Source: Pedobacter indicus (GTDB lineage Bacteria; Bacteroidota; Bacteroidia; Sphingobacteriales; Sphingobacteriaceae). Taken from it: 64,000 nt of DNA. The stretch covers positions 1,674,001-1,738,000 of the forward strand of contig NZ_QRGB01000001.1 in the NCBI RefSeq assembly GCF_003449035.1, written 5' to 3'. This document shows, one piece after another, positions 3,401 through 28,598 of the stretch (position 1 is its first letter; each line of letters starts with the position of its first letter). The translations under genes and the position numbers were made by a program. The notes beneath the pieces were generated by a model. The model saw nothing but the letters and a program-made list of their open reading frames with translations. It made no database searches and was not told where the DNA came from.

Positions 3401-3483
3401 GTGAAGCGGAATCGGGTCATATCCTATTGCAAGATCATAAAGATCAAGCCTATTTCAGAAATATTAAAATACGCAGGTTCTAA
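478..3483 (+). CDS. Secreted trimodular hydrolase: CE15-like esterase + alpha/beta hydrolase + DUF1080
   Basis: 1001 residues with a Sec signal peptide (about 1-21). Residues 90-400 form an alpha/beta hydrolase with GHSRNGK (Ser253) and a candidate catalytic His383 in MGPHAV; the SRxGK nucleophile elbow is that of glucuronoyl esterase/acetyl esterase (CE15-type) proteins. Residues about 490-780 form a second alpha/beta hydrolase of dienelactone-hydrolase/acetyl-xylan-esterase type, but its elbow reads GNTIGG, with Thr638 where Ser is expected, so it may be inactive or non-standard. Residues about 795-1001 are a DUF1080 (3-keto-glycoside hydrolase/LamG-like) domain beginning EILFNGENP. The protein should act on acylated or uronyl-decorated plant glycans in the periplasm or at the surface. 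It is transcribed alone. The domains are clear; the exact substrate is not. Confidence 0.85.
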   Translation: MKKTWLSFVFIFFGATFTAFSQDSVQRKKEYLKEILDINIDQRFRANTRRVSVEDSTWMDWLKRTGELPPDFSKMRSIPNLPEPLIEYRDGNKVPITTVNQWKKKREWIKAQYQHWVSGHAPGAPGNVEANVLTDEVQENGTRVQMIELRFGPGHKAKMTVELIIPPGSEEKPVFMTQWNHRDWAQLAVKRGYIGCVYAAADLKDDTDPYMFIYPDYDFSGLMRRAFGASRVVDYLLTRREVNKDQIAITGHSRNGKQSLWAAAFDERISAVVSSSSSTGGDMPWRYGDPQFASETLDYVMAWNAHWFHPRLRFFSGREDKLPVDQNLLGALIAPRPLLYHYSIVERGLNSWSNEQNYYSVKKVYDFLGVPDHVGVLTRMGPHAVAARDVEQTIDFLDIQFGRSDQKWSNELYYPYDYKKWESSHPDYKEKAKEIVPVKLKNNYRSTTAFQEDKEKIIDNLNWILGDEPAGVRAVNVGSWQPANRDWINLINPIPQVKGAKEIYLGPYSAVGDHVSAVLYCPVDSSSGEIKTGTNGRLPVVIYSHQYAHSSGFVKGHDKGGRLATRDLFESLVKRGFAVMAIDMYGFGTRIWEAKNFDLRYPQWSKMGKFVRDIRSSMDAIDELEYLDNNQIYLLGNTIGGAVSIMAAALDDRVAGVATVAAFSPWRASDSQFESLRNYSHIHGFIPRIGYFVDEPTSVPVDFGEIIAAYAPKPMLLIAPELDRHTDIPALKEMMGSVNKVYSLYDREDNIRVIYQAGEINRMSRDMYETVGDFFLKLSESGDSLSRIGKTETNRGWEILFNGENPASKWRSVKNAKFPSKGWKVVDGNLVITSGGKGGDIITREKYSDFELVFDYKLSDSANTGVKYLVNTLQDSKGRRVLNGPEFQLIDDYKHESVIDNRSPETSTGSLYLLYAPVGKQLNGPGEWNSVRIIVRGNHVEHWLNGKKIVDYNRGSSDFRKRVSETKFKEFKDYGEAESGHILLQDHKDQAYFRNIKIRRF

Positions 3484-11971: not shown

Positions 11972-14900
11972 ATGGAGTTCAATTTCTACAAACGAATGAG
12001 TGGAAAGACATTTAGGTTCGCGTTGGCCTGCTTTGCAGTCCATTCGTTGACTTTATCTGTTCCGCTTGAATTGCAGGCACATGAAGTGATTGTTAATCGT
12101 CATGGTGAGTCAAGAATCCAGCAATCGGTATCGGGTGTTGTCACCGATGAGAATGGTCAGCCGCTGCAAGCTGTAAGTATCGTGGAGCAAGGTACGACGA
12201 ATGGAACGACGACGGATGCGGCCGGTCGATACTCATTGAATGTATCTAATTCGAATGCGTCCCTACTTTTTTCCTATATCGGTTTTGTGAGTCAGACTGT
12301 GGCTGTGGCCAATCAAAGTTCTATTAATGTAACCCTCGTGGAGGATGTCAATGTGTTGGACGAACTGATCGTAGTTGGTTACGGAACACAGAAGAAAAAA
12401 CTAGTAACTGGCGCCACAATTCAGGTCGATGGTGAAGATCTTCAACGATTGAGTACTGCCAGTGTATTAGGAGCCCTACAAAGTCAATCGCCGGGAGTTC
12501 AGATTACACAGAGTTCCGGCCAGCCTGGTGAAGCTTTCAAAGTAACCATTCGCGGACTTGGAACGATCGGTAATTCGTCGCCTCTGTACGTAATTGACGG
12601 GGTTCCAGGAGGTGATATCAATACACTTAACCCATCCGATATCGCGTCGGTTGACGTTTTAAAAGATGCGGCTTCGGCGGCTATTTATGGTTCGCGTGCA
12701 GCTAATGGTGTTGTACTTGTAACGACCAAACAAGGTAAGCCAGGAAAGCTCACTCTCTCGTATGATGCTTACATTGGTTGGCAGAATGCCTATCGAATGC
12801 CGTCATTATTAACGGCAAAAGAATATATGACTGTGATGGACGAAGTTAGATTTAATGAGGGTCAGGCTCCGTACGACTGGGCTGCACTTATTCCGAAACA
12901 ATATCAACAAATACAAGATGGTACTTGGAATGGGACTAATTGGCTTCGGGAAATCCATAATGATGATGCTTTAACACAAAATCATGCCTTCAATTTGAAT
13001 GGGGGAACGGAGCAATCTAACTTTTCCCTCAGTTATTCCTATTCTGACCAAGAAGGTATATTTGGAAAACCAGTAGAACCTGATTTTTCGAGAAATAACT
13101 TTCGAATTAATTCGAATCATACGCTCCTTAAAAACGATGATTTTGACGTTATAAAAATCGGAGAAAACCTAACCTATTCTTATAGTAAAAAAGGAGGTAT
13201 CGGCATTGGTAACATTTATTGGAACGATATCCATAACATGTTGGTAGGTAATCCGCTGCTGCCAGCATATAACGAAGAAGGTGGATATTATGATCGCGCC
13301 AGCAAAGTGGCTGATGGTTGGAATTTAGATGGCGCTACTTCCAATCCACTCGCAAGTATGGTTTATCAGCGTGGGTTAAATGAAAATAAAAGCCATTCGC
13401 TTTTGGCTAATGTTTATCTGGAAGTCCAGCCCATACAGGATTTGAAGTTTAGAAGCAGTTTCGGATATAAAATGAACTCAAATTCTTATAGACAATACAC
13501 GCCAATTTATGATTTGTCAACAACAACTGCCAATCCGACGGACGATGTTTCGCAAAGTCAAGGGATGGGTTATAGTTATACCTTTGAGAATACACTTTCA
13601 TATGCCAGAACATTCAACGATATGCACAATTTTGATGCTTTGGTTGGAGCTTCGATGGAAAAATGGGGAATGGGAGAGGGCTTAAATGCTTCAAACTCCA
13701 ATTCATTATTCCCTGGATCATGGGATCATGCCTATATCGGTAATGCGTATACAATTGGGACAACGACTGTGATCGGAGGAATGAGATGGCCGGAAGGTGG
13801 ATTATCATCATTCTTCGGTAGGGTAAACTATAACTATAATGAGACCTACATGGCCACGTTGATAATGCGAGCTGATGGTTCGTCTAACTTTGCTCACGAT
13901 CATCGGTGGGGCTATTTTCCATCGGTAGCCGCCGGATGGGTTCTCACAAACGAATCATTTATGGAGAGTACGCAAGGTTGGTTAGACTTCATGAAGTTTA
14001 GAGCTAGTTGGGGACAAAATGGTAACGCTAGTATCGATCCGTTCCAATATTTGGCCACCATCGCTTTCGATAGCGGCAACGGATATTACTTTGGGGATAA
14101 TAAAAATGATTTGATTACTGGAGCTTATCCAGACATTTTACCGAATCCCATTATCACTTGGGAGACTTCTGAGCAATTAAATATCGGTATCGACTCCAGA
14201 TTTGCGCACAATAGGCTTGGCTTCACATTCGATTGGTATAAGAAAACGACGAAAGACTGGTTAGTTGAGGCTCCTATTTTAGCTATCTATGGAACGAACC
14301 CCCCTTTTATTAATGGTGGTGTTATTGAAAATACAGGTATCGAACTTGGTTTGACCTGGGACGAGACTATTGGTGAATTCCGTTACGGTATTAATCTGAA
14401 TGGAGCGTATAATAAAAATGAAGTTACCAGAATTGATAACAGAGAGGGAATCATTCATGGTCCGGAACATGTATTGAGCCAGGGAACAACCGAAATGTAT
14501 CGCGCACAAGTCGGCTTCCCGGTCGGTTATTTTTATGGTTATGAAACCGGAGGCATCTTCCAGACTCAAGAGCAAATTAATAATTATCGGAATCAAGGTC
14601 TAGGGGTATTGGTAAATGCGCAACCTGGTGATGTTATATTTGTCGACAACAATGGTGATGGCGCCATTACTGAGGCAGATAAAAAGCTCATTGGGAACCC
14701 TCACCCCGACTTTACTGGTGGTTTGAATATTAATTTTGGATATAAAGGTTTCGATTTGTCTTTGACTGCAACGGGAGCCTTCGGACATCAAATTGCTAAG
14801 TCTTATCGTTCATTCGCGGACAGTCCATTGCAGAATTATACAACGGAAGTATTCCAGCGTTGGCACGGAGAAGGCACTTCAAATAAGTATCCTCGCCTGA

Positions 14901-15196
14901 CAATGGGTAGTCATACCAACAGTCAGTACATTTCTGATATTTATATTGAAGACGGAGATTTTGTTAAGATTCAGAATGTAACCCTCGGATATGATTTAAA
15001 ATCCGTTTTCTTAAACATGCCTTTCTCGAAAGCTCGCCTTTATGTGACCGGACAAAATCTTTTTACTATTACGGGTTATTCGGGTATGGATCCTGAGATT
15101 GGTTATGGCTATGATCAATCTTGGGTATCAGGTATAGACCTTGGATTTTACCCGAGTCCGCGCACCTTTTTGGTTGGTTTAAATCTTACATTTTAA
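11972..15196 (+). CDS. SusC/RagA family TonB-dependent outer membrane transporter
   Basis: 1074 residues. The N-terminus is basic and hydrophobic (export signal, about 1-37), followed by a carboxypeptidase-regulatory-like domain (VSGVVTDENGQPLQAVSI, about 52-130), a TonB box-like LDELIVVGYG with the SusC signature, the plug (SPLYVIDGVPGGDIN, then DVLKDAASAAIYGSRAANG) and a 22-strand barrel ending in an aromatic residue. It imports oligosaccharides or similar ligands with its SusD partner, which starts 11 bases downstream. A -7 box TACATTTG lies at 11913-11920, about 50 bases before the start, without a good upstream TTG. No sigma/anti-sigma or hybrid two-component regulator is nearby, so substrate control is not visible here. 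Confidence 0.97.
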   Translation: MEFNFYKRMSGKTFRFALACFAVHSLTLSVPLELQAHEVIVNRHGESRIQQSVSGVVTDENGQPLQAVSIVEQGTTNGTTTDAAGRYSLNVSNSNASLLFSYIGFVSQTVAVANQSSINVTLVEDVNVLDELIVVGYGTQKKKLVTGATIQVDGEDLQRLSTASVLGALQSQSPGVQITQSSGQPGEAFKVTIRGLGTIGNSSPLYVIDGVPGGDINTLNPSDIASVDVLKDAASAAIYGSRAANGVVLVTTKQGKPGKLTLSYDAYIGWQNAYRMPSLLTAKEYMTVMDEVRFNEGQAPYDWAALIPKQYQQIQDGTWNGTNWLREIHNDDALTQNHAFNLNGGTEQSNFSLSYSYSDQEGIFGKPVEPDFSRNNFRINSNHTLLKNDDFDVIKIGENLTYSYSKKGGIGIGNIYWNDIHNMLVGNPLLPAYNEEGGYYDRASKVADGWNLDGATSNPLASMVYQRGLNENKSHSLLANVYLEVQPIQDLKFRSSFGYKMNSNSYRQYTPIYDLSTTTANPTDDVSQSQGMGYSYTFENTLSYARTFNDMHNFDALVGASMEKWGMGEGLNASNSNSLFPGSWDHAYIGNAYTIGTTTVIGGMRWPEGGLSSFFGRVNYNYNETYMATLIMRADGSSNFAHDHRWGYFPSVAAGWVLTNESFMESTQGWLDFMKFRASWGQNGNASIDPFQYLATIAFDSGNGYYFGDNKNDLITGAYPDILPNPIITWETSEQLNIGIDSRFAHNRLGFTFDWYKKTTKDWLVEAPILAIYGTNPPFINGGVIENTGIELGLTWDETIGEFRYGINLNGAYNKNEVTRIDNREGIIHGPEHVLSQGTTEMYRAQVGFPVGYFYGYETGGIFQTQEQINNYRNQGLGVLVNAQPGDVIFVDNNGDGAITEADKKLIGNPHPDFTGGLNINFGYKGFDLSLTATGAFGHQIAKSYRSFADSPLQNYTTEVFQRWHGEGTSNKYPRLTMGSHTNSQYISDIYIEDGDFVKIQNVTLGYDLKSVFLNMPFSKARLYVTGQNLFTITGYSGMDPEIGYGYDQSWVSGIDLGFYPSPRTFLVGLNLTF

Positions 15197-15207
15197 AACG
15201 CAAGACG

Positions 15208-16896
15208 ATGAAAAAAATTATATGTTTAATAGCGCTTTCTACAGTTTTTCTCTCATGTGAGAAAAACCTGGATTCTCTTAGCTATGATAAAAAAAATACA
15301 GGTAACTTCCCTTCGACGGTTACTGATGCCAATCAGATGTTGACTGGTATTTATTCGACATTAAGTCAGGCAATCTCTAATCCTCAGCATTCTCATTTTT
15401 ACATGTCTGAACTTGCGTCAGATGATCGATTTGGAGGTGGTGGTGAAAATGACAAAGATATGCAGGGGCTGGATCATTTAATGAACACGAAGAGCAGTCG
15501 TTTTGAACCTTTCTGGATCGCTCGTTATCAGGGGATTTTTAGAGCTAATACAGCTATTGAAAACCTAGACAAAGTTGAAGGGTGGGAAAGTGATGCACAA
15601 AAAAACCAAGTATTAGGGGAGGCTCACTTTTTACGTGCGTTGTTCTATTTCGAGCTGTCACAAATGTTCGGAGAGGTTCCTTTGGTAATTAGTACAGTAG
15701 CAGAGAATATACCTAAGGCTCCCGCCGATGAAACCTACGCGCAGATTGCTTATGACTTGCAACAAGCGATTAATCTGATGCCTTCAAGTCCTTACTCCTC
15801 GGTGATATCAGGACATGCTACAAAATGGGCTGCACAGGCATTGATGGCACGTGTATTTCTATTTTACACAGGCTATTATAATAAAACTGACTTGCCAGTA
15901 GCCAATGATGGTGGTGTGGTAAACAAAGCTCAGGTAATTACTTGGATCGATGAATGTGTGAACAACAGCGGACATGGTTTAGTAGATGATTTTCGTAGTC
16001 TCTGGCCATATTCTAACGACTTGACCGCTAAAGATTATGACGCATACACAGGTCCTCTGTGGGTTGGAGATGGCAATAAAGAAGTTGTGTTTGCTGTAAA
16101 GTTTGGAACTTCGGTAGATTGGGGTGAAAACTATCAGTTAGGGTACTCCAATCAATACGTGTTGCATTTTGGTTTACGCTCTAATAACGGTCTGGCTGAC
16201 ACATTTCCGTTCGGTCAAGGTTGGGGGGCAGGCCCGGTTAACTCGCGGCTATGGACTGAATGGCGCACTTCAGAACCGAATGATATCAGAAGAACTGCAT
16301 CGATTATGAATGCAGAGACAGATGTAGAAAATTATATCTACGGTGCAGACAGTCAAATGGAAGAAACTGGTTTTTGGCAGAAAAAATACATACCGATCAC
16401 AGCCTACGATGAAGGTACGCTGGTTCCTTCATATGCTATAATAAAATTCAACGCACCAGCAGATATGCAGATTTCTCATACGCAAGACCTGGTTCTGATT
16501 CGTTTCGCAGACGTGCTTTTGATGCAATCTGAACTGAAAGAAGACGCCACTGGCATGAATAAAGTTCGTGCACGCGCGAATCTTCCGGCAGTATCTTATT
16601 CTTTAGCAGCCCTAAAAAAAGAGCGCCGCTGGGAATTAGCCTTTGAAGGTCTTCGTTATTTTGATTTAATGCGCTGGGGAGATGCTGCAAATGCGTTGGC
16701 GGCACAAGAAGGTGTTGCTATAAAAAATAAGGGCATTGATACTCAAATGAAAGCATTTGGTGGCGGTTATAAAGCTCGATTTGAGGCAACTGGAGGGTTC
16801 TGGGCTATTCCTGAAGCTCAGATTCAACTGTCTGAAGGTGTTTTAACTCAGAATAAAGGCTGGGGTACTCCCGCAGCAGAATTTACTGGATGGTAA
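15208..16896 (+). CDS. SusD/RagB family nutrient-binding lipoprotein
   Basis: 562 residues from the ATG at 15208; the frame is open upstream but the extension overlaps susC. The lipobox FLSC puts the lipidated Cys at residue 17. A SusD-like TPR fold is supported by VLGEAHFLRALFYFELSQMF (about 131-150), with ALMARVFLFYTGYY and the C-terminal RRWELAFEGLRYFDLMRWGD characteristic of the family. It forms the lid of the SusC transporter and binds glycans at the cell surface. It is the second gene of the SusC-SusD-lipoprotein operon. Confidence 0.97.
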   Translation: MKKIICLIALSTVFLSCEKNLDSLSYDKKNTGNFPSTVTDANQMLTGIYSTLSQAISNPQHSHFYMSELASDDRFGGGGENDKDMQGLDHLMNTKSSRFEPFWIARYQGIFRANTAIENLDKVEGWESDAQKNQVLGEAHFLRALFYFELSQMFGEVPLVISTVAENIPKAPADETYAQIAYDLQQAINLMPSSPYSSVISGHATKWAAQALMARVFLFYTGYYNKTDLPVANDGGVVNKAQVITWIDECVNNSGHGLVDDFRSLWPYSNDLTAKDYDAYTGPLWVGDGNKEVVFAVKFGTSVDWGENYQLGYSNQYVLHFGLRSNNGLADTFPFGQGWGAGPVNSRLWTEWRTSEPNDIRRTASIMNAETDVENYIYGADSQMEETGFWQKKYIPITAYDEGTLVPSYAIIKFNAPADMQISHTQDLVLIRFADVLLMQSELKEDATGMNKVRARANLPAVSYSLAALKKERRWELAFEGLRYFDLMRWGDAANALAAQEGVAIKNKGIDTQMKAFGGGYKARFEATGGFWAIPEAQIQLSEGVLTQNKGWGTPAAEFTGW

Positions 16897-16915
16897 GAAT
16901 AAAAGACTTAAAATT

Positions 16916-17752
16916 ATGAAAAGATATGTAGCATATGTAGTGGTATTAATGATTTCGCTAATTGTAATGAGTTGCGAATCAGTAGAAGACCGTTTGGATA
17001 TGGGTGGGTTTATTAGTGCTGAACAACTTGATATATCTGCCACCCCGATCGTAATAGATGGCAAGAATACGAACAAAGTTGTTCTGGATAATAAAAGCCC
17101 GGTGCTGTCTTCATGGAATTTTGGAGTCGGTCAAACGCAAAAGAAAACCGATACCGTTCTGTTGGTTGTAGAAGGGGAGAACGAAATTGTTTTTACCGGC
17201 AGGAACCCGGATGGATCGGAAATAAAAAAAACATTGACTGTTAATGTCGATGAGCTTTATTTCGAGGTTCCACTTGAATGGGGGATTTTGACCGGTGGAT
17301 CAGAGAAAGAATGGATTTGGGACGATTCAGATGGTGGCGTTTGGGGAAATGGAGGGTATCTTGCAAATGTTGAACCTGCTTGGTGGATAGTCAGTTTAGC
17401 TGATGTTAGCGGTCAAGCGCCGGGCGAAGGCACAGGAGCAAAAATGACCTTTTCATTAAGTGGCGCGACATTTACGAAAGTCAAATCGGACGGAACTACC
17501 GAAACAGGAACCTTCTTATTTAATATGACTAACAAAACGACTAAGCCGGATGGCACGGTTTGGGCAAAAGGGAAATTAACACTAAAAGGAACAACAGTTC
17601 TATGTGGAGTTTCACCAGATGAAGGGAAAATTCCAGTTTATGAATATGATATTATTGTTTTGGACAATGAAGAAATGGTGCTGAGTTATGCACCACCGGG
17701 AACTGCTGAGTGGGGTACTGCTTATTTCTGGAAGTTTAGAGCGAGCAAATAA
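16916..17752 (+). CDS. Surface lipoprotein of the SusCD locus, PKD-like N-domain
   Basis: 278 residues, lipobox VMSC with Cys20. Residues about 35-120 look like an immunoglobulin/PKD-type beta domain (DATPIVIDGKN-like strands ending in VNVDELYFEV). The C-terminal half is Trp-rich (EWIWDDSDGGVWGNGGYLAN, PAWWIVSL, YFWKF) and contains TTETGTFLFNMTNKT, as seen in carbohydrate-binding or SusE/F-position proteins. It is 19 bases behind susD and ends the operon at a strong terminator. It probably binds the imported glycan outside the cell; the exact family is not recognised. Confidence 0.75.
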   Translation: MKRYVAYVVVLMISLIVMSCESVEDRLDMGGFISAEQLDISATPIVIDGKNTNKVVLDNKSPVLSSWNFGVGQTQKKTDTVLLVVEGENEIVFTGRNPDGSEIKKTLTVNVDELYFEVPLEWGILTGGSEKEWIWDDSDGGVWGNGGYLANVEPAWWIVSLADVSGQAPGEGTGAKMTFSLSGATFTKVKSDGTTETGTFLFNMTNKTTKPDGTVWAKGKLTLKGTTVLCGVSPDEGKIPVYEYDIIVLDNEEMVLSYAPPGTAEWGTAYFWKFRASK

Positions 17753-18369: not shown

Positions 18370-18471
18370 GCTCTTTATATTAGATTAGTGAATTTATTAT
18401 AGAGAGTAACGCGAGGTTTAAGTAATTGTTTATAATTATTTGAATCGATTTGGATTTACTTGCCAGTAATA

Positions 18472-18789
18472 TCAGGGTCTCCAAAATGTCTCACCGTCTG
18501 CTTTTAGCAGAGAATTCGTATTACTGGGTATTACAGGGATTACTTCCGGACTGTTGTTTATATCGTATTTTTGTCCATCGGCGGGGATTATCTTCAGATT
18601 CCAGGTCGATTTGCCAGAAACGGGTGCATGTATATAATTGGTGCCAACTAAAAGATGCCGCCCATCTGGAGAGAACTCCGCAAAATTTTCAACTCCATCA
18701 CCGTCTGTAACCTGTACTAGATTGCTTCCATCAATATTCATTAAATAGATATGGTTGCCTATATAAAATGAGAGTTTTGTTGCGCACCT
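18472..18789 (-). pseudogene. Remnant of a TolB/PD40-type beta-propeller protein
   Basis: The minus-strand frame encodes IYLMNIDGSNLVQVTDGDG and FAEFSPDGRHLLVGTNYIH, which are the blade motifs of PD40/WD40-like TolB-type proteins. The similarity continues upstream of the ATG at 18741 (LSFYIGNHIYL) until a stop at 18792-18790. Only about 106 codons remain, without a signal peptide or the remaining blades of a normal 300-residue or longer protein. I read it as the C-terminal remnant of a deleted gene. A short expressed ORF from 18741 cannot be excluded. Confidence 0.6.
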
Positions 18790-18918
18790 TTAAAAATAAT
18801 AGTTGCGCATGGCTCTGTATTAAAATTAAATGATAAAGATGTTGCATTACGAAGCATAAATTCCTACATTCAATGTCCGAAACCGAAAATTATTTATCAC
18901 AAACCATTTGAAAGACGT

Positions 18919-21609
18919 ATGTTAATCAAACCCAGACCGCTGTTCATGTTGGCCGTAGTGTGCTCGGCCATTGTATTTAATGCTTGTAATAAGGAGCCAG
19001 AGAACGAAGAGCCTGTTGACCCGAAAGTAGAAAAGTTTACGGTTCCGGAAGATTTTGTGATTGAACATCTATACAGCCCGTCCGACGAAGAAAGGGGTTC
19101 TTGGGTTTCTATGACTTTTGATGATTATGGGAGGATGATTGCTTCGGATCAGTTCGGAGGAATTTATAGACTTACTATTCCCGAGATCGGCAATGACAGC
19201 ATTCCTTTGAAAATAGATAGCCTTCACTTTCCGTTGGTGGGGGAAGCCGTGACTGACACATCAAAGAAAAAAGTGGGGATGGGCTTTGCTCAAGGCTTGT
19301 TATGGGCTCATAATAGTCTATACGTAATGGTTAATCATCGTGGTGATGAAGTTTTAAGAAAGACGAGCGGGCTTTATCGACTTCAAGACACGGATATGGA
19401 TGATGAATTTGACAAAGTTACACAGTTGCTAGAACTGAAGGGAGATGGTGAACACGGCCCCCATAGTGTCATTCTTGGCCCTGATGACGAGTCGATTTAT
19501 GTTGTAGCGGGTAATCATACTGATATCCCCGGAATGGACGCTTATCGTCTTCCGCCTACTTGGCAGGAAGATAATCTCTTACAGCAAATCAAAGACCCCC
19601 AAGGACATGCTACCGACCGGATGGCTCCGGGAGGGTGGATAGCGAAGACTGATTCTGTAGGTTCAACATGGGAGTTGATCGCTGCTGGGTTTCGCAACAC
19701 GTTTGATATTGCCTTTAACGATGTAGGGGAGCTCTTTGCTTATGATTCGGATATGGAGTGGGATTTTGGAATGAGCTGGTATCGCCCCACGCGAATATTA
19801 CACGTAACGAGCGGAAGTGAGTTTGGTTGGCGGACAGGTAATGGTAAATGGTCGCCTGCTTATCCTGATAATTTACCTGCAATGATTAACATTGGTCAGG
19901 GTTCTCCGACAAATTTGGTTTATGGAAATAATGCACTCTTCCCTGACAAGTATCGTAACAGTTTATTTGCTTTTGACTGGAGTTTTGGAATTATTTATTT
20001 GATTGGTTTGGAGTCAGATGGAGCAACGTATCAAGCTACTGCAGAAGAGTTTATAACCGGTTCGCCTTTGCCGTTGACTGATGGTGAATTTGGTCCTGAC
20101 GGTGCTATGTATTTCCTCACAGGAGGGAGGGAGCTGGAATCTGACCTTTATCGTGTCTATCACAAGGATTATCAGAAAATAAAAGATAGAAATAAACAAA
20201 AAATCGATGATTTAAATGCTTATCAGCGTGTGCGACGCCAAATCGAGCGTTATCATACGGACACGATTGCTGAGGCGATTGATGCCGTGTGGCCTTTTCT
20301 ACGCAACAACGATCGGCACATACGTTATGCGGCCAGAATCGCTCTTGAACATCAAGACCCAGCTCTATGGAAGGAACGCGCGTTCAAAGAACGAAGTGTA
20401 CAAGCAGCGATCCAATCGATGGTTGCCTTGGCAAGAACGGGTGATGCTGATTTACAACCTGCTATATTAAGTAAGGTAATGACCATCAATTTACCTGTAC
20501 AAGCAGAGGAAAAGCAATTGGATATTATACGTGCTATAGAACTGACCTTGGCTCGCATGGGTAATCCGGATGAAGTTTTGTCAGCACGGTTAATCGGTTA
20601 TTTAGAGCAAATTTATCCTGCAGCCACCAATGCACTGAACCGGGAACTAAGTAAAGTGCTTGTTCATCTGGGCGATGAGGAGGCGATACCTAAAACATTG
20701 AAATTGTTGGCGACGGCGGAAGATGATTCAACCTATCAGGAGACCGTTACCCAGTCCTCAGATCTTATTTTAAGAAATCCGCAATACGGTCTGGATATAG
20801 CAAACTTATTAACCAAGACACCTCCAGCTCAGCAAATTTATTTGGCGACGGTGCTAAGTAAAGCAAAGTATGGTTGGAATGATGAAACGAGAGACGAATA
20901 CTTCAAATGGTTTTATGACGCGTTCGGATACAAAGGAGGGAATAGTTACATTGGTTTTGTCAATCGTGCACGATCCTTTGCACTTGAAAACGTACCGCAG
21001 TCACAATTTGACCATTATAATGAAATTTCAGGAGATTCACTAGTGAACCAAGCCGGAACGGCACTGTTTACAACAGATGAAGGACCAAAAGGTCCAGGGA
21101 GACCATGGAAAATGGATGAAGCTTTGCCGATCGTTGAGGCCGATTCAGGTAAGCGGGATTTCGAAAAAGGGATGATGCTGTTTTCTTCCATCCGCTGTAA
21201 GTCATGCCATACAATGAAAGGTGAAGGAGGAACAATAGGCCCCGACCTAACACAGCTCGGAACCCGCTTTTCAGCTAAAGATATGCTTGAGGCAATCATC
21301 GAGCCTAATAACATCATATCAGATCAGTATGCATCAACGGTATTTTCATTTAAAGATGGTACCTCGATGTTGGCAAAATTGATCGATGAAGATGACGACT
21401 ACTACCATGTTTCGCAAAACCCTTATGCCCCGCATATTCTGAAAGAAATACCAAAGAAAGAGATTGTCAGTTACAAGTTGGCAGAGATATCGGTTATGCC
21501 TCCAGCTACCATCAATGTATTAAATGAAGATGAGTTGAAGAACCTGCTTGCTTACCTGATGGCTGGCGGAGATGAAGATCATGAAGTTTATAATAAAAAG
21601 AAAAAATAG
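18919..21609 (+). CDS. Lipoprotein: sorbosone-dehydrogenase-like propeller, HEAT region and cytochrome c
   Basis: 896 residues, lipobox FNAC with Cys23. Residues about 40-410 are a six-bladed propeller of the membrane-bound dehydrogenase/L-sorbosone dehydrogenase type (PVC-type heme-binding). The middle (about 430-700) is helical with HEAT-like repeats. The C-terminal 150 residues are a cytochrome c with CKSCH (Cys760, Cys763, His764), then IGPDLTQLGTRF and MPPATINVLNEDELKNLLAY, the usual Met-ligand end. It likely oxidises a sugar or glycoside on the periplasmic side of a membrane and passes electrons to its own heme. Its end overlaps the following DUF1080 gene by 38 bases. Substrate unknown. 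Confidence 0.9.
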   Translation: MLIKPRPLFMLAVVCSAIVFNACNKEPENEEPVDPKVEKFTVPEDFVIEHLYSPSDEERGSWVSMTFDDYGRMIASDQFGGIYRLTIPEIGNDSIPLKIDSLHFPLVGEAVTDTSKKKVGMGFAQGLLWAHNSLYVMVNHRGDEVLRKTSGLYRLQDTDMDDEFDKVTQLLELKGDGEHGPHSVILGPDDESIYVVAGNHTDIPGMDAYRLPPTWQEDNLLQQIKDPQGHATDRMAPGGWIAKTDSVGSTWELIAAGFRNTFDIAFNDVGELFAYDSDMEWDFGMSWYRPTRILHVTSGSEFGWRTGNGKWSPAYPDNLPAMINIGQGSPTNLVYGNNALFPDKYRNSLFAFDWSFGIIYLIGLESDGATYQATAEEFITGSPLPLTDGEFGPDGAMYFLTGGRELESDLYRVYHKDYQKIKDRNKQKIDDLNAYQRVRRQIERYHTDTIAEAIDAVWPFLRNNDRHIRYAARIALEHQDPALWKERAFKERSVQAAIQSMVALARTGDADLQPAILSKVMTINLPVQAEEKQLDIIRAIELTLARMGNPDEVLSARLIGYLEQIYPAATNALNRELSKVLVHLGDEEAIPKTLKLLATAEDDSTYQETVTQSSDLILRNPQYGLDIANLLTKTPPAQQIYLATVLSKAKYGWNDETRDEYFKWFYDAFGYKGGNSYIGFVNRARSFALENVPQSQFDHYNEISGDSLVNQAGTALFTTDEGPKGPGRPWKMDEALPIVEADSGKRDFEKGMMLFSSIRCKSCHTMKGEGGTIGPDLTQLGTRFSAKDMLEAIIEPNNIISDQYASTVFSFKDGTSMLAKLIDEDDDYYHVSQNPYAPHILKEIPKKEIVSYKLAEISVMPPATINVLNEDELKNLLAYLMAGGDEDHEVYNKKKK

Positions 21610-22345
21610 GTTTACAATAACTGCATGTTGTATTATTGTTTTCATATCAGCTTGTAATCCACCAAGCCAGCGTGTTGCAGATGCAGAAGACGATGGTTTC
21701 GTTAACCTTTTTAATGAGGAAAACTTGGATGGTTGGGAAGGGGATCCGGCTTACTGGCGTGTTGAAAATGGTATTGTTACAGGAGAACTGGGACCAGACA
21801 CCCCACCACTAAAAAATAACACGTTTCTTATTTGGAGAGGAGGTTATGTCGGCGACTTTGAACTCAAAACCGAGTTTAGAATCTCAGCAAATGGTAATAG
21901 CGGAATAAATTACCGAAGTCAGGAAATCTCGGGGTTGCCTTACGTGTTAAGCGGGTACCAAGCAGATATCGATGGCCAAAACAGATATAGTGGGCAGAAT
22001 TATGACGAAAGGAAAAGGACGACTTTAGCGTACCGTGGTGAAAAGACAATGATTACCGCATCCGAGGGCGGGAGGGTACAAAATGGGGCTTGGAGCGGTC
22101 GGGTTGTTGAAACATTGGGAGATCCGGATTCGTTAAGTGCCCTTATTAAGCTAGGTGAATGGAATAAATATCATATTATAGCAAAAGATAATCACCTACA
22201 ACATTATATCAATGGCACCTTGATGAGTGATGTCACAGACAACCATCCTAAAATGGCTTCAATGAAGGGATTACTGGGTATTCAAATACATACAGGTCCT
22301 CCTATGAAGATAGAATACCGTAATTTCCGATTAAAAACAGAATAA
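21572..22345 (+). CDS. DUF1080 lipoprotein (3-keto-glycoside hydrolase family)
   Basis: 257 residues with an Arg/Lys-rich start and lipobox ISAC (Cys28); an alternative ATG is at 21581. Residues about 40-257 form one DUF1080 domain (FVNLFNEENLDGWEGDPAYW, GDFELKTEFRIS, GNSGINYRSQEI, EWNKYHIIAKDNHLQHYING). The family includes enzymes that cleave 3-keto-glycosides and 3-keto-disaccharides. It overlaps the dehydrogenase-cytochrome gene by 38 bases, so the pair is almost certainly coexpressed: oxidation first, cleavage second. Function is inferred from family and context. Confidence 0.9.
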   Translation: MKIMKFIIKRKNRFTITACCIIVFISACNPPSQRVADAEDDGFVNLFNEENLDGWEGDPAYWRVENGIVTGELGPDTPPLKNNTFLIWRGGYVGDFELKTEFRISANGNSGINYRSQEISGLPYVLSGYQADIDGQNRYSGQNYDERKRTTLAYRGEKTMITASEGGRVQNGAWSGRVVETLGDPDSLSALIKLGEWNKYHIIAKDNHLQHYINGTLMSDVTDNHPKMASMKGLLGIQIHTGPPMKIEYRNFRLKTE

Positions 22346-22388
22346 ACTTCGATTGGGCATAGAGCCCGTATGTAACAGTAAATCCTGA

Positions 22389-23156
22389 TTATTCTTCAAG
22401 TACAAAGGGCAGTATCAATTCTTTCCATTCTTGATATGCTTTCCCATTTAAATGCAGACCATCATTCGTTAAGTCTTTTTTTAATTTACCTTCTGCATCA
22501 ATGAATGATCGGTGGAGGTCGATGAATTTGTAACTATATTTTACTGCATTTTCTGAAAGAACCGTATTGATTTGTTCGATAGCCTTTCCGTTTTTGGTGT
22601 GATTGTTAAATTTCTTATAAAAATCATTAACAGGAAGAATACTCTGGATATACAGTTTTGTGTCGGGGCTATCCTGTTTTAGAATTCGGGCAATTAAAAA
22701 TATATTATCAATAACCTCCTGTTGAGGTATTTTATGTTCAAGGTCATTTGTTCCTATCAAAAGAAAAACCTTTAGAGGTTTACGATTCGTGATTTCATCT
22801 AAGCGATTAAGGATGCCCGCTGTTTTATCACCACTGATTCCACGATTGATGATGCTGCTGTTCGCGAATAGTTCACTCCACTCGGCCCCATCGGTTATAC
22901 TGTTGCCTAAAAATACAATTGAGTTGGGATGTATCGGTAAGGAGCGAAAATGTGATACTCTCTGTTGATAATAGGTGGAAAAAAGGCTATCATGTAGATG
23001 GTTAGGTATTCGTGCCGGTTCGGTTATCGAGCTGGTTTCAACGATTTGTTTTTCCTGTGCAAATATTGATATTAGATTGAAGTTGGAGTAAAGCAATGCA
23101 AAAAACAGTGTGAAAAGAAGCTTCTTGGACTTTGGTTTCGGTCGATTGATTTTCAT
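22389..23156 (-). CDS. Exported SGNH/GDSL hydrolase
   Basis: 255 residues with a signal peptide (about 1-34). SGNH blocks are present: GNSITDG with Ser86, a Gly in NRGISGD, GTND with Asn137, and NDGLHLNGKAY with Asp232/His235 completing the triad. These enzymes remove acyl groups from carbohydrates or lipids in the periplasm. The gene is on the opposite strand to the DUF1080 gene and convergent with it. It shares a strand with the barrel gene at 23238, whose end is 82 bases upstream. Confidence 0.93.
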   Translation of the reverse strand: MKINRPKPKSKKLLFTLFFALLYSNFNLISIFAQEKQIVETSSITEPARIPNHLHDSLFSTYYQQRVSHFRSLPIHPNSIVFLGNSITDGAEWSELFANSSIINRGISGDKTAGILNRLDEITNRKPLKVFLLIGTNDLEHKIPQQEVIDNIFLIARILKQDSPDTKLYIQSILPVNDFYKKFNNHTKNGKAIEQINTVLSENAVKYSYKFIDLHRSFIDAEGKLKKDLTNDGLHLNGKAYQEWKELILPFVLEE

Positions 23157-23237
23157 TTAATATTTTTTATAAACAAACTTACATTTTTAGTAGACAATAT
23201 ATTAAGAGGATCACTATTAAATTTTCGTCGAAATACT

Positions 23238-24008
23238 TCAGAACCTGTAGCCGACAGCCAAGCCTGCCCGAACTCCGGTCCAGGGGCCTTTGGCATGGAT
23301 GGTTGCTCCTTCGGAATTAACTTCACTGGATAGATCAACGACCGGAACATCTTCTAATATCGATAGTTGGTCTCGCAGGGCATTCTGTTCTCTCTCCGTT
23401 AAGTTTTTATGAGTAGTGAGATCACCTTTCGATGTTCCATACTGAGGACCTAAGATCCACCAATCCAGATACCACTGATTCGCTAGTTTCCATTGAGCTC
23501 CGAATAGTACTCCGCCGGTGAATGTCGATATGCCTCCTGTCATATTTACTTCTTCTTCAATATAGATATCAGACTGATCATCACGGTATTCAATATGGAT
23601 CGGTAGATCGGCAGAGTAGCGGGATATCCTAACAAAAGGAGCAACATAAAAGCCTTGCAGGGTCTCTTTCCCAAAATAAAATTTAACCTCCGGCGTAAAA
23701 GCGATGTTTCCAGTTTGAAGTTGATTTAAATGTGACCAGACCTCATTATTGTCGATGATGTTTTCGAAGACAGATTGAAAAGGAAGACTACCTTTCGGCA
23801 TAAAGCGTATGCCCGCTGCGGCGGAGATGCTCGGGGTGACCGCTCGTTCGTATTGAAATGAGAAGCTTCCTATGGGTAACCCAGCGACATTCCATTTAAT
23901 CATATTCGGTTGAGGGATGTCAAATCTCCCGTTCGGTTGATCTTGTGCGAGAGACATCTGCGTGTTAATCAACAAAATAATAAGGATAAAGAGGCCTATT
24001 TTATACAT
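23238..24008 (-). CDS. Outer membrane beta-barrel protein (DUF3575-like)
   Basis: 256 residues, signal peptide about 1-21 (FILIILLINTQMSLAQ). The mature part has alternating beta strands (KWNVAGLPIGSFSFQYERAV, FTPEVKFYFGKE, APFVRISRY) and ends in GLAVGYRF, the aromatic C-terminus used by the Bam machine. It resembles DUF3575-type porin-like proteins. The function is unknown. Confidence 0.8.
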   Translation of the reverse strand: MYKIGLFILIILLINTQMSLAQDQPNGRFDIPQPNMIKWNVAGLPIGSFSFQYERAVTPSISAAAGIRFMPKGSLPFQSVFENIIDNNEVWSHLNQLQTGNIAFTPEVKFYFGKETLQGFYVAPFVRISRYSADLPIHIEYRDDQSDIYIEEEVNMTGGISTFTGGVLFGAQWKLANQWYLDWWILGPQYGTSKGDLTTHKNLTEREQNALRDQLSILEDVPVVDLSSEVNSEGATIHAKGPWTGVRAGLAVGYRF

Positions 24009-24148
24009 AATTATGGATTGGATACTGGACTAACAAGTATAGTGAATAAGTGTTTTCTTTTAAATTGTACACGGTGGTTCTTTATTTCTTTTATATATTT
24101 AACGAAAAATAAGGCTCTTCTTGTTTTTAAAATGCATAAAAAACTCTT

Positions 24149-25114
24149 ATGAAAAAAACACTTATACTTGCACTTTGTTGTTTCCTTTCCGTTGGGGTAA
24201 GTTTTAATTTAATGGCAGCAAAATACTCGCAGCAGACTGCATCGCAGCCTGATAAAAAAGATCTTTTGGGTCGTTGGGACTTGACGGTAGACGTAAACGG
24301 GAAACCCTCGCCTTCATGGTTGGAGGTAAAGCTTTCGGGAAACAGAACCCTGATAGGATCTTTTGTAGCTATTGTAGGTAGCGCACGTCCGGTCTCTGAA
24401 ATACAATACGACAATGGTCAGTTTCACTTCGAGATACCACCACAATGGGAATCGGGGAACCAAAACCTTCAAGTCAAAGGTGCCTTGCAAGGATTGGAAC
24501 TTAGGGGAACCGTTGTTATGAGCGATGGGAAAGAGTATTCTTTCAAAGGAGTCAAAGCCCCTGCATTAAAACGGTCGGCCGACATCGAGTGGGGAGAAGC
24601 TGTTGACTTATTTAATGGGAAGGATCTGGCAGGTTGGAAGGCTACGGGCGAGAACCAATGGGAGGTGATAAACGGTGTATTGACCAGTGCTCAGTCAGGT
24701 GCAAACTTGGTTTCTGATCAGAAGTTCAATGATTTTAAATTACACGTTGAGTTCAGATATAAGAAGGGAAGTAATAGTGGTGTCTATTTAAGAGGAAGGC
24801 ACGAAGTGCAGATCGAAGATAGCCCAAAAGATGCTCACCCTGACAGTCATTTGTTTAGCGGTGTTTATGGCTTCCTTCCGCCTAGTGAAATCGCAGCCTT
24901 AGGTCCGGACACGTGGCAAACATATGACATAACGCTGATTGGCCGTATGGTTACTATCGTAGCGAATGGGAAAACCGTCATTTCTAATCAGGAGATCCCT
25001 GGTATAACGGGCGGGGCACTTGATAGTAATGAAGGAGAACCAGGGCCAATTTATATTCAGGGAGATCATGGGCCTATTGAATTCCGGAAAATTACGATCA
25101 CCGAGCCAAAATAA
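24149..25114 (+). CDS. Exported DUF1080 protein with an N-terminal beta domain
   Basis: 321 residues with a signal peptide (KTLILALCCFLSVGVSF, cleaved near residue 25). Residues about 38-135 form a beta domain (LGRWDLTVDVNGKPSPSWLE), followed by DUF1080 at about 148-320 (AVDLFNGKDLAGWKATGENQ, KKGSNSGVYLRGRHEVQIED, DTWQTYDITLIGRMVTIVAN). It is the type expected to hydrolyse 3-keto-glycosides in the periplasm. Single gene, divergent from the barrel gene and convergent with the LpxH-like gene. Confidence 0.9.
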   Translation: MKKTLILALCCFLSVGVSFNLMAAKYSQQTASQPDKKDLLGRWDLTVDVNGKPSPSWLEVKLSGNRTLIGSFVAIVGSARPVSEIQYDNGQFHFEIPPQWESGNQNLQVKGALQGLELRGTVVMSDGKEYSFKGVKAPALKRSADIEWGEAVDLFNGKDLAGWKATGENQWEVINGVLTSAQSGANLVSDQKFNDFKLHVEFRYKKGSNSGVYLRGRHEVQIEDSPKDAHPDSHLFSGVYGFLPPSEIAALGPDTWQTYDITLIGRMVTIVANGKTVISNQEIPGITGGALDSNEGEPGPIYIQGDHGPIEFRKITITEPK

Positions 25115-25139
25115 GTCGCTCGGTACCAGGTTTCAAAAT

Positions 25140-25979
25140 CTATTGTCGAAATTGCTTTAGTATCTGGTGCACGTCCAATTTTGCACTCAAATCTTCCGCA
25201 TCATACGATTCGGTGTCTTCTTCAGTATTGTTGAATGACATCGAATTGTATTTATAGATTGACCATTCGTCGTTATGATATTCCAATGCACTTAAATTCT
25301 CTACCCAGTCCCCTGAGTTTAAGTAAAGAACATTTCCATTTTCAGTTTCGATGGTTTTAAGTTCAGGCTGATGGATGTGACCGCATACGACATAAGTATA
25401 CCCTTTGTCTACCGCTAGCTCCGCTGCAGTATACTCAAAATCATTAATGAATTTAACCGCATTTTTGAAGCTAGCTTTGACACGTTTAGAGAAGCTCATT
25501 TTCTCGCGTTTCATCATTGTTAAGCACCAGTTTACAAAACTATTGATCAGAATCAATGTGTCATACCCAATGGCTCCCAATTTGGCTAACCACTTGGAGT
25601 GCTGCATCGTAACATCGAAGACATCACCGTGAAAAAACCAAGCTTCTTTCTCACCGAGGTTCATGACCAGTTTATCAGCTAAATAGAAGTTGCCGATTTG
25701 TAAATCACTGAACTTTCTCAGCATCTCATCGTGGTTGCCCGTTAAATAATGCACTTTGGTTCCCTCTGTAAGGAATTTCATAATTCGGCGAACTACCTTC
25801 ATATGTGAATCCGGCCAGTATGATTTGCTGAATTGCCAGATATCTATGATATCACCGTTTAAAATAAGGGTTTTGGGACGGATACTTTTAAGGTAATTCA
25901 AAAGTTCTTTGGCGTGGCAGCCATAGGTGCCTAAATGAACATCGGATATGACCACTAGGTCAACTTCTCGTTTTGTCAT
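25140..25979 (-). CDS. Metallophosphoesterase, LpxH-like UDP-2,3-diacylglucosamine diphosphatase
   Basis: 279 residues. The dinuclear metal motifs are complete: ISDVHLG (Asp13, His15), NGDIIDIW (Asp43), GNHDE (Asn82, His83), FHGDV (His117) and CGHIHQP (His201, His203). This is the COG2908 layout of LpxH-like enzymes, which hydrolyse UDP-2,3-diacylglucosamine in lipid A synthesis. Several Bacteroidota carry more than one copy, so another substrate is possible. Cytosolic or peripheral membrane. Confidence 0.88.
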   Translation of the reverse strand: MTKREVDLVVISDVHLGTYGCHAKELLNYLKSIRPKTLILNGDIIDIWQFSKSYWPDSHMKVVRRIMKFLTEGTKVHYLTGNHDEMLRKFSDLQIGNFYLADKLVMNLGEKEAWFFHGDVFDVTMQHSKWLAKLGAIGYDTLILINSFVNWCLTMMKREKMSFSKRVKASFKNAVKFINDFEYTAAELAVDKGYTYVVCGHIHQPELKTIETENGNVLYLNSGDWVENLSALEYHNDEWSIYKYNSMSFNNTEEDTESYDAEDLSAKLDVHQILKQFRQ

Positions 25980-26165
25980 GTGACGCTTAATGTAATGCTA
26001 CAAAACTCGCATTTAAATATAAACTCAATGATAACCGAATGTTAAATGTTGTAATTGAACGACTGCGAAATCGGTGCAATAATTAAGGTAGAATTCAAGA
26101 AAGGTTAAGATAGTGGAAGTTTAATCGAAAAATATGAGATATATTTGGAGCCTTAACTTAATTTT

Positions 26166-28598
26166 ATGAAAATATTAAAGTTCTTCGCCGGTATACTTTG
26201 TTTATGTTTTGTCCTTTTTAGTCTCTCATGTAATAAGCGACCGGGGAACCCCAGAATATTGGTGTTTAGTAAGACCGCCGGGTTTTATCATGAATCTATA
26301 CCCAAGGGCGTTGCTACTATTCAAAAACTAGGCGCGGAAAATAATATCATTGTCGATACGACAACCAATGCCGATTGGTTTACAGATGATTCGCTAAAGA
26401 ATTACTCCGCTGTCGTTTTCCTGAGTACAACAGGTGATGTGCTTGATCATTATCAGGAAGCAGCCTTTGAGCGGTACATCCAAGCTGGAGGTGGCTTTGT
26501 AGGTATTCACGCTGCGGCTGATACCGAATACGAATGGGGATGGTACGGTCGGTTAGTAGGGGCATATTTCAAAAGTCATCCTGAACAGCAAAAGGCCACT
26601 TTGAATATCGTAGATGATAGTCATGTTTCAACGAAACATCTACCCAAAGTATGGGAAAGAAAAGACGAGTGGTACGATTTTAAAAATATAAGTGAGGACA
26701 TTCAGGTCATCATGACTATTGATGAGGACTCGTACAAAGGGGGGCGCAATCCAGACGAACATCCTATGGCATGGTACCAGGAGTATGATGGTGGCCGAGC
26801 ATTTTATACGGCTTTAGGTCATACCGATGAATCCTACGATGACCCTCTCTTTCTACAGCATATTTTAGGAGGAATTGAATACGCGATCGGCGGAAATAAG
26901 AAATTGAACTATAAAAAGGTAAGGACCTTGAATGTGCCTGAAGAGGAACGTTTTACCAAAACACAATTAGTTGAAGGAGTGTTTAACGAGCCAACAGAAA
27001 TGGCCATCTTGCCTAATTTGGACATTTTGATTGTCCAGAGAAGAGGTGAGGTTATGTTGTTTTCTAATGAAAGTCAGGAAGTAAAGCAAGTAGGTTATCT
27101 GGATGTGTACCATGAGTCAGGTGTGCCTGGTGTTAATGCCGAGGAAGGTCTGATGGGCATCGTCGCAGATCCTGATTTTCAGGAAAATGGATATATCTAT
27201 ATGTATTATAGCCCGGCTGATACTTCAGTTAATCGCCTGTCTCGTTTTGAATTTAAAAATGACACGGTCGATAATGCTACGGAAAAGACTGTTCTTGAAT
27301 TTTACTCACAGCGGGGCATTTGTTGTCATACAGGCGGGTCGCTAGCGTTCGGAGAGAAAAGAGAACTATTTTTGTCAACTGGCGACAATTCCACACCATT
27401 TGATCAGCCCAATGAGGCCTTTGCTAACCACGGGTTTGCTCCGTTGGACGCAAGACCCGGATTCGAACAATACGATGCGCGAAGGACTGCTGGAAATACC
27501 AATGATCTGCGAGGGAAAATATTACGGATTATTGTTAACAAGGATGGTAGTTATGATATTCCGGAAGGAAATCTTTTTAAGGATCAGGAAAAAACCAAGC
27601 CTGAAATCTATGTAATGGGAGATCGTAACCCATACAGGATATCAATCGATAGGAAAACGAATTACCTGTATTGGGGTGAGGTTGGCCCCGATGCTGCCAA
27701 TGATAGTCTGGATACTCGCGGACCAAAAGGCTACGACGAAATCAATCAAGCTCGGAAACCTGGTAATTTCGGCTGGCCTCTGTTTGTTGGGGACAACTAT
27801 CCGTATCGTGCATATGATTACGCTACTGGCGAGAGCGGGGAAGTGTTTGATCCGGCCAAACCCATCAATAGCTCTCCGAATAACACAGGCTTGACTGAGC
27901 TGCCACCTGCGCAGCCTGCATTTATCTGGTATCCTTATGGTGAGTCACCTGATTTCCCAAGTGTTGGTACGGGTGGGCGGAACGCAATGGCAGGACCTGT
28001 TTACTATGCAGAGGATTTCCCCGAAGAAACGCGTTATCCAGATTATTACAACGGTAAATTATTTATTTACGATTGGGTTAGAGGCTGGATGAAGGCGGTA
28101 ACCATGCAAGAAAATGGTGATTTCGATAAAATGGAGCCATTTATGACTGGTACAACGCTTCATGCGCCAATCGAAATGGAAGTAGGCCCTGATGGGCGGC
28201 TCTATTTATTAGAGTATGGGAAAGGCTGGTTTGCAAAGAACCCCGATGCAGGCTTGATTCGTTTAGATTATAATTCGGGTCCAATCGAAAAGCGACCTGA
28301 TGAAGCTGAAGTTTCGACTGCCAACAAGCCAAAAGGTAGTGTATTGGTTTCTTCGCTCGACTGTGCTGCCTGTCATAAAGAATCTGAAGAGTCTGTAGGT
28401 CCTTCTTATCGAAGTATTGCAGAAAAATATAAGGACGATTCGCACGCGATTCCATATTTGTCTGCTAAGATCATTGATGGTAGTACCGGGGTATGGGGGG
28501 CAAACGTCATGCCTGCACACCCGGCTATGAAAGAAGCAGACGCAAATGCAATAGCGGAATGGATAATGGCGTTAAATGAACAAGGGCATCAACAATAG
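26166..28598 (+). CDS. Lipoprotein: ThuA domain + PQQ-type sugar dehydrogenase propeller + cytochrome c
   Basis: 810 residues, lipobox SLSC with Cys22. Residues about 30-240 form a ThuA/glutamine-amidotransferase-like domain (GGGFVGIHAAADTEYEWGWY, GHTDESYDDPLFLQHILGGI). Residues about 260-700 form a glucose/sorbosone dehydrogenase propeller (EEGLMGIVADPDFQENGYIY, CCHTGGSLAFGE, DLRGKILRI, GYDEINQ). The C-terminus is a cytochrome c with CAACH (Cys733, Cys736, His737) and MPAHPAMKEADANAIAEWIM. It likely oxidises a sugar derivative outside the cytoplasm and passes electrons to the fused heme. The ThuA role is unknown. The DUF72 gene follows at 6 bases. Confidence 0.92.
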   Translation: MKILKFFAGILCLCFVLFSLSCNKRPGNPRILVFSKTAGFYHESIPKGVATIQKLGAENNIIVDTTTNADWFTDDSLKNYSAVVFLSTTGDVLDHYQEAAFERYIQAGGGFVGIHAAADTEYEWGWYGRLVGAYFKSHPEQQKATLNIVDDSHVSTKHLPKVWERKDEWYDFKNISEDIQVIMTIDEDSYKGGRNPDEHPMAWYQEYDGGRAFYTALGHTDESYDDPLFLQHILGGIEYAIGGNKKLNYKKVRTLNVPEEERFTKTQLVEGVFNEPTEMAILPNLDILIVQRRGEVMLFSNESQEVKQVGYLDVYHESGVPGVNAEEGLMGIVADPDFQENGYIYMYYSPADTSVNRLSRFEFKNDTVDNATEKTVLEFYSQRGICCHTGGSLAFGEKRELFLSTGDNSTPFDQPNEAFANHGFAPLDARPGFEQYDARRTAGNTNDLRGKILRIIVNKDGSYDIPEGNLFKDQEKTKPEIYVMGDRNPYRISIDRKTNYLYWGEVGPDAANDSLDTRGPKGYDEINQARKPGNFGWPLFVGDNYPYRAYDYATGESGEVFDPAKPINSSPNNTGLTELPPAQPAFIWYPYGESPDFPSVGTGGRNAMAGPVYYAEDFPEETRYPDYYNGKLFIYDWVRGWMKAVTMQENGDFDKMEPFMTGTTLHAPIEMEVGPDGRLYLLEYGKGWFAKNPDAGLIRLDYNSGPIEKRPDEAEVSTANKPKGSVLVSSLDCAACHKESEESVGPSYRSIAEKYKDDSHAIPYLSAKIIDGSTGVWGANVMPAHPAMKEADANAIAEWIMALNEQGHQQ

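Follow-up and report, generated by a model that had tools for sequence, protein, structure and literature searches.

The question and the locus

Does a stretch of some 10 kb in Pedobacter indicus encode a single extracytoplasmic pathway, in which a glycoside is oxidised by haem-bearing lipoproteins and then cleaved by DUF1080 proteins? Such a pathway had been proposed in a preliminary description of the window, a term used here for the whole 64,000-nucleotide stretch of DNA that was analysed. The proposal drew on two lipoproteins that join a sugar-dehydrogenase-type propeller to a C-terminal cytochrome c (with the motifs CKSCH and CAACH, respectively), a ThuA domain in one of them, a DUF1080 lipoprotein overlapping the first by 38 bases, and another DUF1080 protein located between this pair and the second. 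All of these elements were recovered, and the genes concerned, named A to D, are listed here together with the transport genes that precede them:

11972..17752, plus strand: SusC/SusD genes and the gene of a SusE-like lipoprotein, upstream of A
18919..21609, plus strand: gene A, open reading frame for a lipoprotein of 896 aa (lipobox FNAC)
21572..22345, plus strand: gene B, open reading frame for a DUF1080 (3-keto-disaccharide hydrolase family) lipoprotein (lipobox ISAC)
24149..25114, plus strand: gene C, secreted protein with an extra N-terminal domain and a C-terminal DUF1080 domain (signal peptide, without lipobox)
26166..28598, plus strand: gene D, lipoprotein of 810 aa with ThuA domain, GSDH propeller and cytochrome c

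Matches to the DUF1080 profile (PF06439) reach 133 bits in B and 145 bits in C, the Pfam cut-off being 26.8. To these a third DUF1080 domain of the window has to be added, which the preliminary description had overlooked; it belongs to a 1001-aa protein (478-3483) that also comprises a glucuronyl-esterase-like domain and an alpha/beta hydrolase. B, C and D are separated from one another by unrelated genes on the opposite strand, and since an opposite-strand PfpI gene likewise separates the SusCD set from A, co-transcription of A with SusCD is not implied. Between the PfpI gene and A, at about 18420-18830 of the minus strand, lies an apparent TolB/WD40-like remnant that has no start codon. A Bacteroidetes-type promoter pattern was not found upstream of A, C or D. 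As had been pointed out before, the usual GMC and Gfo/Idh oxidoreductases are absent from the window (no gene of either kind), while the genome carries 24 Gfo/Idh/MocA and three GMC genes elsewhere.

Conservation of the A-B pair

The search covered 80 genomes, namely that of the window and 79 relatives. A occurs in six of them (the window and five relatives) and B in eight, including all six with A, a co-occurrence with a hypergeometric probability of 9e-8 if kinship among the 80 genomes is ignored. Of the pairing that the preliminary description had anticipated in relatives, the A-B part thus stood, whereas C was near D in none of 10 relatives. In all five A-bearing relatives B lies on the contig of A, just downstream of a Gfo/Idh gene, and the same locus holds genes for a DUF4432 protein, an orphan protein of 401 aa, an AP_endonuc_2 TIM barrel and a Gfo/Idh/MocA protein, often beside SusCD. 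For instance, the relative closest by its A protein (G028) shows the order SusC-SusD-A-DUF4432-401aa-ThuA-TIM ... MFS-SusC-SusD-TIM-Gfo/Idh-B.

A scan of named genomes yielded at least 591 relatives of A, of which the best 80 loci, from 31 named genera and 12 named families of Bacteroidota, were analysed. Because some contigs end near A, the neighbour counts at these 80 loci are lower bounds: B and DUF4432 were each present at 51 or more, the 401-aa gene at no fewer than 50, and TIM barrel, Gfo/Idh and SusD-like genes at at least 45, 43 and 39, respectively. B follows A directly at 36 of the loci, with a 4-base overlap at 11, and it was not met within about 9 kb at 29; where it is missing, ThuA and TIM barrel genes sometimes come after A (Dyadobacter, Emticicia). 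The B proteins make up a distinct DUF1080 subfamily, found mostly at A loci. Among the other products, the operon Gfo/Idh protein, which has no evident signal peptide, comes closest to levoglucosan dehydrogenase, with a score of 329 bits against a cut-off of 650, and the TIM barrels are of the AP_endonuc_2/psicose-epimerase type. At those A loci for which the mapping included a GMC reference, no GMC gene was recognised. The recurrent neighbours of A included no recognisable lactonase or aldonate gene, and the literature searched contained no paper that connects DUF1080 with DUF4432 or with haem proteins of the PVC type. On this record of gene order, conservation and co-occurrence, A and B very probably form a real, conserved module of an operon of the keto-sugar type.

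The 401-aa family and gene loss

Within the 80 genomes, the 401-aa gene is confined to exactly the five A-bearing relatives and is found only with A. Its product (exemplified by L041 6015-7220, and present in the four other relatives and at 50 of the 80 named A loci) keeps about 80% identity across Bacteroidota, has no relative by sequence in Pfam, NCBIfam or PDB, and is modelled by AlphaFold2 with a pLDDT of 52.7, a confidence that does not permit a structure-based search. The genome of the window contains neither this gene nor a DUF4432 gene, the control for the latter search having matched in E. coli. In a tree of A, the window's sequence falls in a six-member clade (support 99) whose other five members have the 401-aa gene; the genome of the window has lost both genes. 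The whole tree implies 15 or more changes in the presence of the 401-aa gene near A, some of them perhaps an artefact of short contigs. The cytoplasmic arm of the operon is thus frequently gained and lost, and an A-B pair without it is a recurrent state. A sign test across the tree gave no significant dependence of B on the 401-aa gene (median p 0.29).

Architecture of protein A

An AlphaFold2 model of A (mean pLDDT 80.5, with low values near the haem) comprises a six-bladed propeller (residues 46-415), HEAT-type helices (434-690), which had gone unmentioned earlier, and a haem domain (748-881) with the motif CKSCH at residues 760-764. This propeller-HEAT-haem layout is that of the PVC-type haem-binding CxxCH proteins (TIGR02604/TIGR02603). 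The haem domain of A reaches 86 bits with TIGR02603, above the cut-off of 68, but the TIGR02604 match of its propeller, at 71 bits, stays below the cut-off of 122, so that A is to be regarded as a divergent relative of these proteins and not as a member; it also lacks the Pfam domain DUF7133. A Pfam search of A named only the cytochrome and made no GSDH call. The haem-ligand residues C760, C763, H764 and M860 are invariant in all 44 A sequences, and Met860 is taken as the likely axial ligand, its site matching that of the Kustd1711 diheme cytochrome, a relative of the haem domain of which the M292C and M292H mutant structures have been solved.

When the propeller was compared with solved structures by Foldseek, the aldose and glucose dehydrogenases 2ism, 1c9u and 3das ranked among the best matches, with E values from 7.7e-12 to 5e-10, and VIA-align gave a Z of 21.6 for 3a9g versus 19.7 for designed propellers. 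As modelled, the N-terminal domain of A is thus closest to PQQ sugar dehydrogenases, by a small margin over generic propellers. A and D, presented earlier as two proteins of one kind, share no close kinship: their hhalign match (probability 90%, E 1.3e-6) is confined to the propeller. In a profile alignment of the two, His179 of A pairs with His388 of D, and Arg259-Asn260 with Arg487-Asn488, the D residues in question corresponding to the His and the Arg-Asn pair with which soluble glucose dehydrogenase carries out catalysis; the three residues of A are invariant in the 44 sequences. Asp407 and Gly507-Pro508 of D, presumably the active-site Asp and the calcium ligands of the same enzyme, are not matched in A, where Asn199 and the invariant acidic sequence DSDMEWD stand instead. 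The idea that DMEWD might be a hallmark of all PVC-type propellers was rejected, as the motif was not found in the paralogues tested and hence marks the branch of A only. PqqC had no match in the 80 genomes, in a search that gave no positive control signal.

Proteins C and D

D is composed of a ThuA domain (30-240), a GSDH domain (273-553, 133 bits) and a cytochrome c (723-803) with the motif CAACH. In all 16 D-type sequences, the haem-ligand residues C733, C736, H737 and M782 are invariant, Met782 being taken as the probable axial ligand, and so are the residues typical of PQQ dehydrogenases, H388, D407, R487-N488 and G507-P508. The PKD and CBM6 domains present in most relatives are missing from the window's D. 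Its orthologues mostly stand alone. One locus (L099, genome G041) has a D-type protein together with a GMC/Gluconate_2-dh3 pair, a Tat Gfo/Idh, an MFS transporter, a further Gfo/Idh, a TIM barrel, a small cytochrome c and a DUF1080 protein.

That A, B, C and D belong to a single pathway of 10 kb in which two dehydrogenases work in parallel, the proposal of the preliminary description, is suggested by their proximity in the window, by the occurrence of D near A in the relative G004 and at two Segetibacter loci as well, and by the company that D keeps at L099. Yet these are, with the window, the only places where D lies near A; C orthologues were near D in none of 10 relatives, a DUF1080 neighbour is missing at most D loci, and the intervening opposite-strand genes are unrelated. 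The four-gene pathway is accordingly very improbable: a single pathway is retained for A-B only, while C and D, set aside on their context in relatives, are best treated as separate from the pair.

Comparison with known systems

In the lactose cluster of Caulobacter, the membrane-bound LacABC is a lactose 3-dehydrogenase that oxidises lactose in the periplasm, and fitness data indicate that growth on lactose requires the DUF1080 protein and that the transporter, two epimerases and a reductase of the cluster also matter (PMC9007349). The locus described here is similar, by analogy of parts, in linking an extracytoplasmic dehydrogenase to a DUF1080 protein, with transporter, epimerases and reductase, whereas the oxidant would be a single propeller-HEAT-cytochrome lipoprotein instead of the three-part LacABC complex. 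A gene set of this kind (dehydrogenase, DUF1080, epimerase, reductase) is present in the relatives, and only A-B is left of it in the window. The BT2157-BT2159 pathway of Bacteroides (NCBIfam NF058561, NF058563) likewise joins the oxidation of a glycoside outside the cytoplasm to a DUF1080 hydrolase; there the oxidant, the periplasmic glycoside 3-dehydrogenase BT2158 (PMC11300592), is a Gfo/Idh/MocA enzyme, and the pathway includes no haem protein.

Regarding proteins built like A, no shown function of PVC-type haem-binding CxxCH proteins was found in the literature searched, and for the PSCyt proteins of Verrucomicrobia an action on carbohydrates has been suggested (PMC5615132). The fungal AA12 quinohaemoprotein CcPDH resembles A in that a propeller sugar dehydrogenase is fused to a cytochrome, with passage of electrons between the domains, but it has haem b and proven PQQ, and it is thought to act at C-1, as are the quinoprotein sugar dehydrogenases of this propeller fold, and not at C-3 (PMC4332668). 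The aldose sugar dehydrogenases (PDB 2ism, 3das, 2g8s), which are the nearest solved folds to the propeller of A and the nearest sequences to the GSDH domain of D, differ from A in having no haem, and A differs from them in the missing Gly-Pro calcium ligands. For a protein from Teredinibacter that combines propeller and cytochrome, neither PQQ binding nor glucose dehydrogenase activity was observed (PMC10916295).

A possible pathway and its alternatives

The reading we prefer, with a probability of roughly 0.45, is that A-B represents the extracytoplasmic half of a conserved keto-sugar catabolic operon of Bacteroidota, with A as the oxidant; the role of A as the keto-forming enzyme is equally tentative. 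All catalysis, the carbon oxidised, the cofactor and the electron path are here what we infer, largely by analogy. The substrate would reach the periplasm, in relatives via the neighbouring SusCD. There the sugar would lie in the middle of the propeller of lipid-anchored A, which would oxidise one of its hydroxyls by means of a bound cofactor; the haem at the C-terminus of A would take up the electrons and hand them to the respiratory chain. B would then split the keto-glycoside by the DUF1080 reaction, and in relatives DUF4432, the 401-aa protein, the TIM barrel and Gfo/Idh/MocA would take over in the cytoplasm, isomerising and reducing the keto-sugar. In P. indicus, with DUF4432 and the 401-aa gene lost and no Gfo/Idh gene beside A-B, the products would have to go to other enzymes. 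Two further loci of the same genome (L052 1201-4350, L053 6708-9638) encode, beside Gfo/Idh and TIM genes, ThuA-DUF7133-HEAT proteins that end in an azurin-type copper domain. As this domain replaces the cytochrome at the same end, the swapped carrier suggests that such propellers pass electrons. The Gfo/Idh, TIM-barrel and ThuA genes of the relatives' operon, familiar from keto-sugar pathways, speak for A as the oxidant, and the missing Gly-Pro and Asp, which D retains, speak against it. Also to be set against it are the action at C-1 ascribed to quinoprotein relatives, the PqqC search with neither a match nor a positive control signal, the Teredinibacter protein that binds no PQQ and the 29 of 80 A loci lacking B within about 9 kb, and the operon Gfo/Idh could itself be the oxidant; we know of no activity for any A-type protein.

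A serious rival is the oxidation of C-1, A being a quinoprotein-type aldose dehydrogenase that makes lactones from free reducing sugars, and the roles of B and the operon lying at other points in the use of the same sugar. The nearest folds of A, aldose sugar dehydrogenases and soluble glucose dehydrogenase, point in this direction, as does the action at C-1 ascribed to its haem-fused relative CcPDH (PMC4332668). However, the conserved partner of A is a DUF1080 protein, known members of that family cleave 3-keto-glycosides, the Gfo/Idh, TIM and ThuA partners fit keto-sugars too, and lactonase and aldonate genes go unrecognised among the recurrent neighbours, all of which leaves C-1 oxidation rather unlikely.

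Slightly better odds, though still well short of even, are given to A as a binding or electron-handling protein, the keto step being left to the operon Gfo/Idh or to other dehydrogenases among the 24 Gfo/Idh and three GMC proteins of the genome. The ability of Gfo/Idh enzymes to form keto groups is proven (BT2158, PMC11300592), adjacent Gfo/Idh and DUF1080 genes resembling BT2158-BT2157 exist elsewhere in the window's own genome (L045-L047), and the cofactor residues of A are partly lost. What argues against this explanation is that the operon Gfo/Idh, unlike the lipoproteins A and B, lacks an evident signal peptide, that the tree shows A repeatedly in the absence of the 401-aa gene, and that His179 and the Arg-Asn of A are invariant.

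Implications

The cleavage of keto-glycosides is an alternative to classical glycoside hydrolases, and the conserved A-B pair points to a candidate case of glycoside breakdown by prior oxidation. More speculatively, and with doubts that outweigh those about A as the oxidant, A may be a self-contained, haem-linked glycoside 3-dehydrogenase with a cofactor site unlike that of PQQ sugar dehydrogenases. It would then serve a conserved Bacteroidota operon that includes an orphan 401-aa family, and represent a third, unrelated class of keto-forming enzymes beside Gfo/Idh (BT2158) and GMC, the type to which the LacABC dehydrogenase belongs. The A-B pair and the full operon of the relatives together offer a small, clean system in which to test A as the oxidant. 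If A does have this role, many propeller-haem proteins of Bacteroidota to which no function is attached would gain a testable one, and so, by analogy, would the PVC-type haem proteins.
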